Source: Lachnospiraceae bacterium
Lineage (GTDB): Bacteria > Bacillota > Clostridia > Lachnospirales > Lachnospiraceae
Reading direction: 5' to 3'
Assembly (NCBI GenBank): GCA_029062895.1
Contig: JAIDPF010000083.1
Location: 1 to 37,725 of the forward strand
DNA: 37,725 nt
Below are positions 6,838-36,224 of this stretch, in pieces. Each line of letters starts with the position of its first letter. Positions within the stretch are counted from its first letter, which is position 1. Made by a program: the position numbers and the translations under genes. The notes under the pieces were generated by a model that was not told the origin of the DNA, ran no database searches, and worked only from the letters and a program-made list of their open reading frames with translations.

Positions 6838-8115
6838 ATGGAAGAAAAATCTTTTAAAAAATATATCATTTTGTGGTTAAGTCAGAGCGTATCCGGGTTG
6901 GGAAGTTCCATGACAGGATTTGCGCTGGTATTATGGGCATATGAGCAAAGCCATTCTGCAATGTCTGTTTCGCTGATGTCCTTTTGTAACTATGTGCCGT
7001 ATGTATTTCTAAGCCTGTTTGTCGGCAGTTTTATAGACAGGCATAAGAAAAAATCAATTATGCTGGTTTCGGACAGCATTGCGGCGGCTGGTTCATTGGC
7101 AGTGTTGTTGTTCCTGCTTACGGGGAAGCTGTCGGTCTGGATGATTTATGTTATGAATGTAGTCATAGGTATGACGAATGCTTTCCAGCAGCCGGCATCC
7201 GCAGTGGCAACGGGGTGGCTTGTACCGAAGGAGAAGATTTCAAATGTGAGTGGTATGAATTCTTTTTCCAATAACCTTATTGTGGTATTCAGTCCCATGC
7301 TGGCGGCGTTCCTTTTTGCAGCTGGCGGGCTGCCGATTGTTCTGCTGATAGACCTGGCGAGCTTTGCATTTGCATTTTGTGTGTTATTGTTTTTTATTGC
7401 AATCCCGGAGCGGGCGCAGGATAAAAAACAGGGTTCTCCGTTTGCCGGGATGACGGAAGGATTCACTTTCCTGAAACAGGAAAAAGGCATTTTATATATT
7501 ATGCTGACGATGGCGCTGATCAATTTCTTTTCAAGGCTTACTTATGAGAATATTTTATCGCCGATGATTCTGGCAAGAAGCGCAGGGAACAGTATTGCGC
7601 TTGGAATGGTAAATGCCTGTATGGGAATCGGCGGAATTGTGGGTGGAATCATTGTTTCCGTGAAAAAGGAGAGCCGTCATAAGGCTGTGTCAATTTACAT
7701 TTCGGCTGCATTATCATTTCTGTTCGGCGATCTTCTGATGGCGGTGGGAAAAAATGTTTTCTGGTGGTCGGCTGCTGCGGTTGCTGCCAGCCTGCCGATT
7801 CCTTTTATCATGGCGAATCAGAATACGATCATGTACCGTAAGATTCCTGAGTTCATGCAGGGAAGAGTGTTCGCAGTCAGGAATGCCATCCAGTATAGCA
7901 CGATTCCGGTTGGTATTATCCTTGGAGGCTATCTGGCCGATTATGTGTTTGAACCTTTTATAAGTTCGGGGAATGAACTGGCGGGGACTATTGGAACAAT
8001 CGTAGGGAATAGCGCTGGAAGCGGCATGGCAGCAATGTTTTTGTGTACCGGGGTATGTGGGTTTATAGTGAGTCTGTTCTCCTGCTTCAACCGGGAAATA
8101 AAGAAACTGGATTAA
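6838..8115 (+). CDS. MFS drug efflux protein, macrolide-efflux (Mef/DHA3-like) type
   Basis: A 425-residue membrane protein with about 12 predicted helices. The N-terminal half has the MFS loop signature GSFIDRHKKKSIMLVSD between helices 2 and 3 and a QQPASAVATGWLVPKE segment similar to Mef-like exporters. It probably exports a drug or other small molecule using the proton gradient. The ribosome site is a modest GGAG 10 bases before ATG 6838. The upstream leader peptide and hairpin suggest induction by a translation inhibitor. A terminator follows immediately. Substrate cannot be read from sequence. Confidence 0.88.
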   Translation: MEEKSFKKYIILWLSQSVSGLGSSMTGFALVLWAYEQSHSAMSVSLMSFCNYVPYVFLSLFVGSFIDRHKKKSIMLVSDSIAAAGSLAVLLFLLTGKLSVWMIYVMNVVIGMTNAFQQPASAVATGWLVPKEKISNVSGMNSFSNNLIVVFSPMLAAFLFAAGGLPIVLLIDLASFAFAFCVLLFFIAIPERAQDKKQGSPFAGMTEGFTFLKQEKGILYIMLTMALINFFSRLTYENILSPMILARSAGNSIALGMVNACMGIGGIVGGIIVSVKKESRHKAVSIYISAALSFLFGDLLMAVGKNVFWWSAAAVAASLPIPFIMANQNTIMYRKIPEFMQGRVFAVRNAIQYSTIPVGIILGGYLADYVFEPFISSGNELAGTIGTIVGNSAGSGMAAMFLCTGVCGFIVSLFSCFNREIKKLD

Positions 8116-34113: not shown

Positions 34114-34164
34114 AACATACTAGATTTTTTCTCCAGAATATGCGAAAATATATAGGATTGAAAT

Positions 34165-34309: not shown

Positions 34310-35014
34310 ATGATTATTTCTAAAGAAGTTCAAGAAATGTGTACGGTGGCGCAGGGCGTTCATCATGGCGCAGCACCCATCCCAGAAGAGGCAAAATGGG
34401 TTAAGGCAAAAGAAGTAAAGGACATTTCCGGTCTGACACACGGTGTTGGCTGGTGTGCACCTCAGCAGGGCGCATGTAAGCTGACTCTGAATGTGAAAGA
34501 GGGTATCATCCAGGAAGCATTGGTTGAAACCATCGGATGTTCCGGTATGACGCACTCCGCAGCTATGGCAGCTGAGATCCTGCCGGGTCTTACAGTTATG
34601 GAGGCATTGAATACTGACCTTGTATGTGATGCAATCAACACAGCAATGAGAGAACTCTTCCTGCAGATCGTTTATGGTAGAAGCCAGAGTGCATTTTCAG
34701 AGGATGGTCTTCCCGTAGGAGCAGGTCTTGAGGATCTTGGTAAAGGTCTTAGAAGTCAGGTTGGTACGATGTACGGTACACTTCAGAAGGGACCGAGATA
34801 TCTGGAGATGGCAGAAGGTTATGTTACAGGCATCGCTTTGGACGCTGATGACCAGATCATTGGATATAAGTTCGTAAGCCTTGGCAAGATGACAGACTTT
34901 ATTAAGAAGGGTGATGATCCTAATACAGCTTACGAGAAGGCAAGCGGACAGTATGGACGCGTTGCTGACGCCGTTAAGATCATTGATCCCAGAACTGATG
35001 CAGAAGTGAAATAA
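34310..35014 (+). CDS. NifU/IscU-like iron-sulfur scaffold partner of GGGtGRT protein
   Basis: A 234-residue protein. IGCSGMTHSAAMAAEIL resembles the metal-binding GC-x-x-x-x-A-S segment of NifU/IscU scaffolds. Cysteines are at 11, 49, 56, 77 and 106, three of which could bind a cluster. It lacks the usual C-terminal NifU domain and has its own helical tail. GAAAGGAGAAG precedes the ATG. It is followed after 14 bases by the GGGtGRT gene, and the two occur together in Clostridia as I recall. Codon choice (Gly GGT, Leu CTT, Arg CGT) is unlike most neighbours and suggests high expression. The exact role is undefined. Confidence 0.85.
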   Translation: MIISKEVQEMCTVAQGVHHGAAPIPEEAKWVKAKEVKDISGLTHGVGWCAPQQGACKLTLNVKEGIIQEALVETIGCSGMTHSAAMAAEILPGLTVMEALNTDLVCDAINTAMRELFLQIVYGRSQSAFSEDGLPVGAGLEDLGKGLRSQVGTMYGTLQKGPRYLEMAEGYVTGIALDADDQIIGYKFVSLGKMTDFIKKGDDPNTAYEKASGQYGRVADAVKIIDPRTDAEVK

Positions 35015-35028
35015 GGAGGAGAGAAAAC

Positions 35029-36039
35029 ATGGCTTTATTTGAATCATATGAAAGAAGAATTGACAAAATCAATAAAGTTCTCGGTGAGTATGGAATCTCT
35101 TCCATTGAAGAAGCTGAGAAGATTACGAAGGACGCAGGTCTTGACGTATATAATCAGATCAAAGGCATCCAGCCGATCTGTTTTGAAAACGCATGCTGGG
35201 CTTACACTGTAGGCGCTGCAATTGCAATCAAGAAGGGATGTAAGAAAGCTTCTGAAGCTGCTGCAGCAATCGGCGAGGGTCTTCAGGCATTTTGTATTCC
35301 GGGTTCCGTTGCAGACACCAGAAAGGTTGGTCTTGGTCATGGTAACCTTGGTAAGATGCTCTTAGAGGAAGAGACAGAGTGCTTCTGCTTCCTTGCAGGT
35401 CATGAGTCATTTGCTGCTGCTGAGGGCGCGATCGGTATCGCTGAAAAGGCTAACAAGGTTCGTCAGAAACCGCTTCGTGTTATCCTGAACGGTCTTGGTA
35501 AAGATGCTGCTCAGATCATTTCCCGTATTAATGGTTTTACTTATGTTGAGACGGAATATGATCCTTATACCAACACAGTAAAAGAAGTATTTAGAAAATC
35601 CTATTCAGAAGGACTTCGTTCTAAGGTTAATTGTTATGGCGCTAATGACGTTTGTGAAGGCGTTGCAATTATGCATAAGGAAGGCGTTGACGTTTCCATT
35701 ACAGGTAATTCAACCAATCCTACCAGATTCCAGCACCCCGTTGCAGGTACATATAAGAAAGAATGTATCGAGCAGGGTAAGAAGTATTTCTCCGTTGCAT
35801 CCGGCGGTGGTACAGGCCGTACCCTTCATCCGGACAATATGGCAGCTGGTCCTGCATCCTACGGTTTCACAGATACCTTAGGACGTATGCATTCCGATGC
35901 GCAGTTTGCCGGATCTTCTTCCGTTCCTGCCCATGTTGAGATGATGGGTCTGATCGGCGCAGGCAACAACCCGATGGTTGGTATGACTGTTGCAGTTGCT
36001 GTTTCGATTGAGGAAGCTGCTAAAGCAAACCGTTTCTAA
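35029..36039 (+). CDS. GGGtGRT protein (uncharacterised conserved family)
   Basis: A 336-residue protein of the family named for its motif, here SGGGTGRTLHPDN (residues 258-270). Other conserved-looking parts are GHGNLGKML, FLAGHESFAAAEGA and NSTNPTRFQHPVAGTYKKE. Cysteines at 51, 56, 71, 89, 118, 120, 202, 209 and 246 would be suited to metal or cluster binding. The pattern of Gly-rich turns and helices suggests a cytosolic enzyme. It has optimal codons and AAGGAGG right before the ATG. The family is conserved in anaerobes, but I know of no demonstrated function. The gene ends in a 20-base tandem repeat over its stop codon. Confidence 0.93.
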   Translation: MALFESYERRIDKINKVLGEYGISSIEEAEKITKDAGLDVYNQIKGIQPICFENACWAYTVGAAIAIKKGCKKASEAAAAIGEGLQAFCIPGSVADTRKVGLGHGNLGKMLLEEETECFCFLAGHESFAAAEGAIGIAEKANKVRQKPLRVILNGLGKDAAQIISRINGFTYVETEYDPYTNTVKEVFRKSYSEGLRSKVNCYGANDVCEGVAIMHKEGVDVSITGNSTNPTRFQHPVAGTYKKECIEQGKKYFSVASGGGTGRTLHPDNMAAGPASYGFTDTLGRMHSDAQFAGSSSVPAHVEMMGLIGAGNNPMVGMTVAVAVSIEEAAKANRF

Positions 36040-36073: not shown

Positions 36074-36141
36074 CTGGTAAGTTTTAAAAAATAATGGAAC
36101 ATATGAAATATCATTAATGATTTAAAATGACATCAGGTATG

Positions 36142-36178
36142 AAAAGTACCGTGATCCCAGCGATTGCGGTACTTTTTA
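36142..36178 (+). terminator. Terminator of the GGGtGRT operon
   Basis: AAAAGTACCG (36142-36151) pairs with CGGTACTTTT (36167-36176) around a 15-base loop, followed by TATTATTG. No T-box antiterminator sequence was seen, so it looks like an ordinary terminator. Confidence 0.75.
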
Positions 36179-36224
36179 TTATTGTTTTTATATGTGATAA
36201 CAATAGATGACAGGAAGAACGGAT

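Follow-up and report, generated by a model that had tools for sequence, protein, structure and literature searches.

The 37,725-nt stretch of Lachnospiraceae DNA analyzed here (contig JAIDPF010000083.1 of assembly GCA_029062895.1, positions 1 to 37,725; hereafter the window) carries two neighboring genes, for a NifU/IscU-like protein and for a GGGtGRT protein, which, as detailed below, constitute a self-contained, obligately paired, and strongly codon-biased operon. The two genes are located as follows.

34310..35014, + strand: gene for the NifU/IscU-like protein (234 aa; motif CAPQQGxC)
35029..36039, + strand: gene for the GGGtGRT protein (PF14057; 336 aa)

These open reading frames (ORFs) agreed with an initial annotation, made from the sequence alone, which had described two adjacent genes 14 bases apart; the gap comprises positions 35015-35028. 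With respect to the identities proposed therein, that of the GGGtGRT protein was well supported, as it matched PF14057 with 630.8 bits against a curated cut-off of 27 over model positions 1-327 of 327, was the single match to this family in the host genome, and contained the motif SGGGTGRT at residues 258-265. The NifU likeness of the partner turned out to be weak and below the curated cut-offs, with 20.4 bits against Pfam NifU_N (cut-off 22) and 23.3 bits against NCBIfam NifU_clost (TIGR03419), far under the cut-off of 187.9, although a sequence profile of the protein matched a NifU in the PDB with an E-value of 8.2e-5. On these comparisons it appears to be a distant, weakly NifU-like relative of the NifU/IscU family. 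When 10 GGGtGRT members were compared with Pfam, no other family was credible (the best, seen in one member, had E = 0.0049), and the only possible sequence relative met in the PDB, a guanylyl-cyclase (E = 0.0037 with the single sequence, 0.43 with the profile), was taken as spurious.

The distribution of the pair was assessed in 293 genomes of the window's class, its own included, in which the partner was counted as present when the NifU-like family was matched at E below 1e-60. PF14057 was found in 149 and the partner in 148 of these genomes: 147 carried both genes, 2 only GGGtGRT, 1 only the partner, and 143 neither (Fisher p = 2e-81, phylogeny ignored). All three exceptions were contig edges or remnants, namely a GGGtGRT gene at a contig end with its upstream side missing (G481), a partner match beginning at base 5 of a contig with its downstream side missing (G413), and a genome holding 3' remnants only (G474), and therefore none of them shows a separation of the pair. 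The initial annotation had held that its reading would fail if the two families did not co-occur elsewhere, and the pair passed this check. Furthermore, of 136 GGGtGRT loci, 133 had the NifU-like gene immediately upstream in the same orientation, the other three being without room for it. In a draw from the phylum, GGGtGRT was present in 9 of 199 genomes including the window's, and all nine loci of the other eight genomes were paired. GGGtGRT also appeared in 6 records of the phage collection and in 10 of the plasmid collection (the latter from Parabacteroides, Bacteroides, Phocaeicola, Collinsella, Subdoligranulum, Persicobacter, and Vibrio), and the pair was present in 9/9 of those retrieved (7 plasmid, 2 phage); among 14 control genomes, GGGtGRT was found in Bacteroides ihuae only.

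The neighborhood set comprised the 80 closest relatives among the matches listed, with few records from beyond the window's relatives. No further neighbor family was common to more than 31 of 74 loci, and the two most frequent candidates for an additional operon partner, a hexapeptide-repeat protein (31 loci) and topoisomerase III (30 loci), were rejected as local synteny. In the window itself, a gene for a hexapeptide-repeat protein precedes the pair and one for a GNAT acetyltransferase follows it. The evolutionary distances of the two genes correlated with r = 0.875 over 120 paired loci, a value confounded by species phylogeny.

Several relatives carried variants of the locus. Genome G190 held a second, diverged GGGtGRT/NifU-like pair with the motif GGGIGRT beside the ordinary one (L007, L010), and the second pair shared 63% and 60% identity with the first, so that both genes had diverged alike. 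A Parabacteroides locus (L158) had a 63-aa ORF between the two genes (positions 7800-7991), TlpA and OsmC genes upstream of the pair, and a nitroreductase gene downstream. In G399, a genome listed as 7% contaminated, the GGGtGRT gene was split into separate frames and the NifU-like gene was kept (L174, L177, L188).

As the reference for the codon adaptation index (CAI) we took 17 ribosomal-protein genes that were recognized by eye among the ORFs in a 20-kb stretch of the host genome, and the comparison covered 31 genes of the window, without two short ORFs at its ends. The GGGtGRT (0.740) and NifU-like (0.739) genes ranked first and second, the remaining 29 genes having a mean of 0.583 (sd 0.033, maximum 0.658), while the ribosomal genes, each omitted from the reference set for its own score, averaged 0.689 (range 0.632-0.745) and the canonical nifU and iscS of the host genome gave 0.648 and 0.539. 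The pair thus reaches the ribosomal level, and the strong expression that had initially been read from a codon choice unlike that of the surrounding genes is therefore well founded as a prediction. Taken together with the near-perfect co-occurrence, the adjacency, and one report that GGGtGRT is highly expressed in vivo by chicken caecal anaerobes (PMC11204068), this codon bias bore out the description of the pair as a conserved and probably abundant system. The accompanying claim that both proteins are rich in cysteine was not sustained, as they contain 5/234 (2.1%) and 9/336 (2.7%) cysteines compared with a mean of 1.78% (sd 0.97) for the other 29 window proteins, seven of which exceed both; what is notable about the cysteines is their conservation, not their number.

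This conservation was evaluated with 131 distinct GGGtGRT and 122 distinct near-full-length partner sequences, partial sequences being excluded. In the NifU-like protein, Cys49, Cys77, and Cys106 were invariant (122/122) and Cys56 was present in 121, missing once, in Vibrio. In GGGtGRT, His104, His125, His236, and His302 were invariant together with many Gly, Asp, and Glu residues, as were G259-G261 and G263-T265 of the GGGTGRT motif, T262 being retained in 130 sequences. No cysteine of GGGtGRT was invariant (C118 in 129, C89 in 127, C202 in 124), so that a conserved Cys-ligated cluster inside this protein is unlikely, and GGGtGRT itself as the cluster protein was disfavored.

NifU/IscU scaffolds possess three conserved cysteines, the first within C-G-D, and an LPPVK motif followed by His-Cys. 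The genome encodes one such canonical NifU on a separate contig (G000:C80:36296-36664), adjoining a cysteine desulfurase recognized by eye. When the window protein was aligned with it (profile E = 1.7e-6, 32% identity over ~70 residues), the canonical C-G-D fell on Q52-Q53-G54, which a Cys precedes by three residues. The next canonical Cys was matched by C77, and C106 lay outside the aligned part; the LPPVKVHCS of the canonical copy had no counterpart in the window protein, which reads NTDLVCDAIN. No cysteine desulfurase was recognized by eye beside the window pair, nor among neighbor families occurring in at least 8 loci. Since C-G-D and LPPVK-HC are missing, the word scaffold describes a resemblance rather than a demonstrated role, and the protein would be at most an IscU-type carrier, not a standard scaffold.

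SufU is an IscU-like protein that is not a general scaffold. It was among the weaker profile matches of the window protein (E = 0.029; PDB name 'Zinc-dependent sulfurtransferase SufU'), and an IscU-like protein thus need not be a scaffold, which lends some substance to the idea that the partner carries a persulfide or Zn and that GGGtGRT either accepts the sulfur or acts as a thiolating enzyme. The lack of a recognizable desulfurase in the searches just described speaks against such sulfur or zinc transfer, as does the strong iron dependence described next, which is not expected of a zinc protein, and we consider it highly improbable.

In the passages and tables of the literature that name these proteins, the pair is linked to iron. 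In Bacteroides thetaiotaomicron, BT0173-74, named GGGtGRT and NifU, were 11 to 12.8-fold lower in low iron (PMC10434189), and in Clostridium pasteurianum the GGGtGRT protein was higher with iron, 7.1-fold in the early and 2.2-fold in the late phase (PMC5395762, Table 2), as was its NifU-related neighbor with the next locus tag, in spot 520 (3.7- and 2.9-fold, early and late) and in spot 519 (2.4- and 1.6-fold) (PMC5395762). By contrast, a NifU-family protein of Clostridium difficile, listed beside iscR and iscS2 and from these neighbors presumably a canonical NifU, rose in low versus high iron (log2 +0.83 for the transcript, +3.83 for the protein), and a fur mutant gave log2 values of -2.97 and +0.31 (PMC6311696, Table 1). 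With regard to abundance, an entry 'Nitrogen-fixing protein NifU', a name that does not specify which NifU, stood among the top 25 protein families of three cows at a percentage abundance of 0.28, 1.72, and 1.47 (PMC6043501, Table 1), and GGGtGRT appears in further metaproteomes of rumen and human origin (PMC7035244, PMC12643325, PMC13041051, PMC12101220). It was also among the PathoFact hits in Clostridium innocuum (PMC9942572); nothing in the present analysis supports a virulence role.

Such expression might be that of an iron or iron-sulfur (Fe-S) buffer, in which the pair would store or sequester iron or clusters during iron plenty and release them later, with GGGtGRT as a bulk partner and not an enzyme. 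Both proteins follow iron strongly and GGGtGRT is reported to be highly expressed in vivo, as a buffer would be, and a clear ferritin was found in 48 of 149 genomes with GGGtGRT versus 75 of 144 without it (odds ratio 0.44, Fisher p = 6e-4), a contrast that is not corrected for phylogeny and in which ferritin was called as PF00210 at E<=1e-28, a threshold set after seeing the table. However, those 48 genomes hold both ferritin and GGGtGRT, the strict conservation of the glycine-rich loop and of His, Asp, and Glu residues in the 131 sequences is enzyme-like and untypical of bulk storage, and no poly-acidic or Cys-rich stretch was seen by eye. We thus regard storage as unlikely, though deserving of serious attention.

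The published studies also concern known iron enzymes, as PFOR, fumarate reductase, and rubrerythrin are among the iron-lowered genes listed for Bacteroidetes (PMC10434189). That such enzymes follow iron in the same studies is compatible with a dedicated maturation factor, i.e., a pair whose role is cluster insertion into an Fe-S enzyme from another locus, such as PFOR; the IscU-like nature of the partner fits this function, and the Collinsella pair has sufB, sufD, sufS, and sufU in its vicinity, with a transposase in between. On the other hand, the codon bias of the pair (0.74) exceeds that of the canonical nifU and iscS, and about half of the sampled class lacks the pair, leading us to judge a maturation role quite unlikely. 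[FeFe]-hydrogenase (PF02906), which was nearly universal (277/293 genomes), was considered as the sole client and rejected as unlikely, as 9 of the 149 GGGtGRT-bearing genomes yielded no match to it, some of these absences in draft genomes being possibly gaps.

The explanation that we prefer, with a confidence slightly short of even, is that the pair would be a two-subunit iron-dependent enzyme of anaerobic metabolism, in which the IscU-like subunit holds a cluster or iron and GGGtGRT is catalytic. The IscU-like subunit would be a built-in carrier rather than a general assembly scaffold, binding an Fe-S cluster (or iron) on Cys49/Cys77/Cys106, and would dock on the GGGtGRT subunit, a predicted alpha/beta protein, whose invariant His, Asp, and Glu residues and glycine-rich GGGTGRT loop could make up the substrate or active site. 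Cluster loading would fall to the separate canonical NifS-NifU system of the genome, and when iron is short, the cell would stop making the pair, as with other iron enzymes. We prefer this explanation because of the co-occurrence and adjacency of the two genes, their like divergence in G190, the CAI, and the iron-linked expression, and because of the separate canonical NifS-NifU, the invariant Cys trio of the partner, and the invariant His set of GGGtGRT; the opposite iron response of the C. difficile NifU-family protein points in the same direction. The initial suggestion of a cluster-carrying enzyme with a dedicated scaffold was thus strengthened in one part by the published iron dependence of both genes, and weakened in others by the lack of an invariant GGGtGRT cysteine and by the missing scaffold motifs. 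A bolder version, that the pair represents an undescribed class of two-subunit Fe-S enzyme rather than a storage or assembly system, with the IscU-like CAPQQGxC protein as the permanent cluster subunit of an alpha/beta enzyme having a His/Asp/Glu site, and that it carries out a major unrecognized reaction of gut and rumen anaerobes, is offered tentatively, as we think it somewhat more doubtful than probable.

Several points weigh against the enzyme explanation. The metal, the cluster, the interaction of the subunits, and the catalytic activity are things that we infer from the pairing, conservation, and codon bias observed here and from an iron link taken from print; a storage or maturation protein should likewise show iron-following expression; and no conserved pathway neighbor in the 74 loci points to a reaction. 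The structure models add to this. The GGGtGRT model, built from 58 sequences that were 80-96% identical to the window protein, reached a mean pLDDT (predicted local distance difference test) of 77.4 and a pTM (predicted template modeling score) of 0.80 and suggested a helical N-terminal part followed by an alpha/beta part, but residues 259-309, including most of the GGGTGRT motif, were modeled below pLDDT 50. No pocket, such as the cysteine-lined one that the initial annotation had proposed to look for, is therefore seen around this conserved loop. A Foldseek search of the PDB with this model returned 994 matches at E<=10 and none at E<=1e-3; eIF2B-alpha and phosphofructokinase headed the list with TM (template modeling) scores of ~0.24 and were not believed as folds of GGGtGRT. 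The model of the NifU-like protein was poor (mean pLDDT 63.6, pTM 0.45), and its best Foldseek matches were IscU structures, including human ISCU with E = 2.1e-4, a TM-score by target of 0.52, and a root-mean-square deviation of 14.8, figures to be read in light of the weak model. Given no PDB relative and a poor partner model, the active-site picture is therefore one that we infer.

Transcription signals of the operon were assigned as follows.

34121..34149, + strand: predicted promoter TNGAY-N15-TGNGARAAT, 189 nt upstream of the pair
36139..36179, + strand: strong intrinsic terminator closing the operon (18-pair stem, then a T-rich tail)

The predicted promoter consists of a -35-like element, a 17-nt spacer, an extended TG, and an unusual -10 element, GAAAAT. 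Its occurrence was examined in the window and 69 relatives, 11 of the 80 relatives being excluded for a cut or misaligned partner start or for little upstream DNA. In 36 of these 70 loci (the window and 35/69 relatives), the 29-nt signature was located in the 300 nt that precede the pair, at distances of 87-205 nt, and it occurred elsewhere only twice in 2.29 million nt of strands, once 325 nt upstream of the L091 pair, compared with 0.8 expected from shuffles over the whole set; the pattern was derived from the same loci in which it was counted, its underlying 8-mers having first emerged from an unguided count. The 3.07-Mb host genome contained 4 matches and none of the reversed pattern. The signature was absent from all 55 other loci, including L006 of the window's own family, and is therefore lineage-specific, not universal. 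Its position suggests a promoter that, in the searched loci, is nearly confined to this operon. Of the three other matches in the host genome, two fell within ORFs (L200, L201) and one lay between ORFs that point in the opposite direction (L202), so that we make no claim of a regulon, and a generic sigma-70 scan was uninformative (7 promoter-like sites vs 4.6 in shuffles). The terminator hairpin had a folding z-score of -5.94 against 200 shuffles, while the terminator scan overall showed no excess (2 found vs 1.9 in shuffles). No RNA element was detected in the window at Rfam gathering thresholds.

In Clostridium-like loci (L122, L125, L129, L134, L141, and L147, that in L125 being one base off), a TGGGW-N9-DCCCA dyad lay between the start of the pair and the likely promoter. 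It preceded the pair in 5 of 7 genomes, from six of which the pattern had been derived, and the reversed control pattern also matched in each genome. Of 9 further sites examined, 3 fell within ORFs and 6 lay between ORFs that share no function; in G483, a similar dyad (L224:2593) precedes a phosphofructokinase gene by 24 nt. The dyad may reflect a regulator or an RNA element, or may have arisen by chance.

A separate observation concerned the end of the GGGtGRT gene.

35929..36036, + strand: 3' end of the GGGtGRT gene (residues 301-336), homologous to a recombination core in relatives

Judging from the sequences of relatives, this end is a recurrent attachment site for elements with a tyrosine recombinase. 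Viral contigs contained 19 GGGtGRT loci on 18 contigs (L011-L029), many with the 3' end of the gene only, and in 16 of the 19 a PF00589 tyrosine recombinase started 111-381 nt past that end, while 676, 133, and 2 nt remained before the contig end in the other three. As accessory domains, seven of the recombinases had PF17293 and PF13102, one (L012) PF13102 alone, and two (L015, L027) PF14659, with none listed in six. Because the viral contigs were chosen for phage content, recombinases are expected there, and the independent support comes from five genomes. More than one GGGtGRT match was present in 15 genomes (14 of the class draw and G190), of which 12 were re-searched and G258, G320, and G443 were left out. 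In G339, G213, G380, G212, and G292, an intact gene was accompanied by a downstream second copy of about 30 of its terminal codons, gene and copy sharing stretches of 44-95 identical bp at a separation of 1.7 to 49 kb; a PF00589 protein directly followed the intact gene in the first four and the second copy in G292, and the GGGtGRT reading frame was kept in all five. The others comprised further remnants without a demonstrable element in G306, G286, G458, and G474 (no recombinase being seen in G306), real second genes in G232 and G190, and the broken gene of G399. Neither a second core copy nor a recombinase was seen in the window, of which 1.7 kb remain beyond the end of the gene. No report of such use of GGGtGRT was met in the consulted portions of the GGGtGRT literature, an observation not meant as a claim of its absence from print. 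A landing site for integrative elements with several recombinase kinds would be of separate interest for prophage biology.

The pair deserves attention, occurring in roughly every second genome sampled from the class as well as in Bacteroides-group, Collinsella, Persicobacter, and Vibrio records, and combining ribosomal-level codon usage and a published iron link with, as far as the consulted portions of the literature naming GGGtGRT extend, no assigned activity. The invariant Cys and His residues, the obligate pairing, and the separate canonical NifS-NifU reduce the question of its function to a few direct tests.

In comparison with known systems, the GGGtGRT protein of the window was an ordinary member of the PF14057 family, which includes BT0173 of B. 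thetaiotaomicron and F502_05012 of C. pasteurianum, with no essential difference; in both of these published cases, a NifU-named gene with a neighboring locus tag and iron-linked expression resemble the window pair, and no function assigned to the family was found in the consulted literature naming GGGtGRT. SufU was approached through a weak match only, and among the records retrieved with annotation, a linkage to suf genes was confined to that from Collinsella. From the canonical NifU/IscU, the window protein differs in being ~90 residues longer and in having no cysteine desulfurase next door, and it has three invariant cysteines of its own but lacks their C-G-D and LPPVKVHC motifs.

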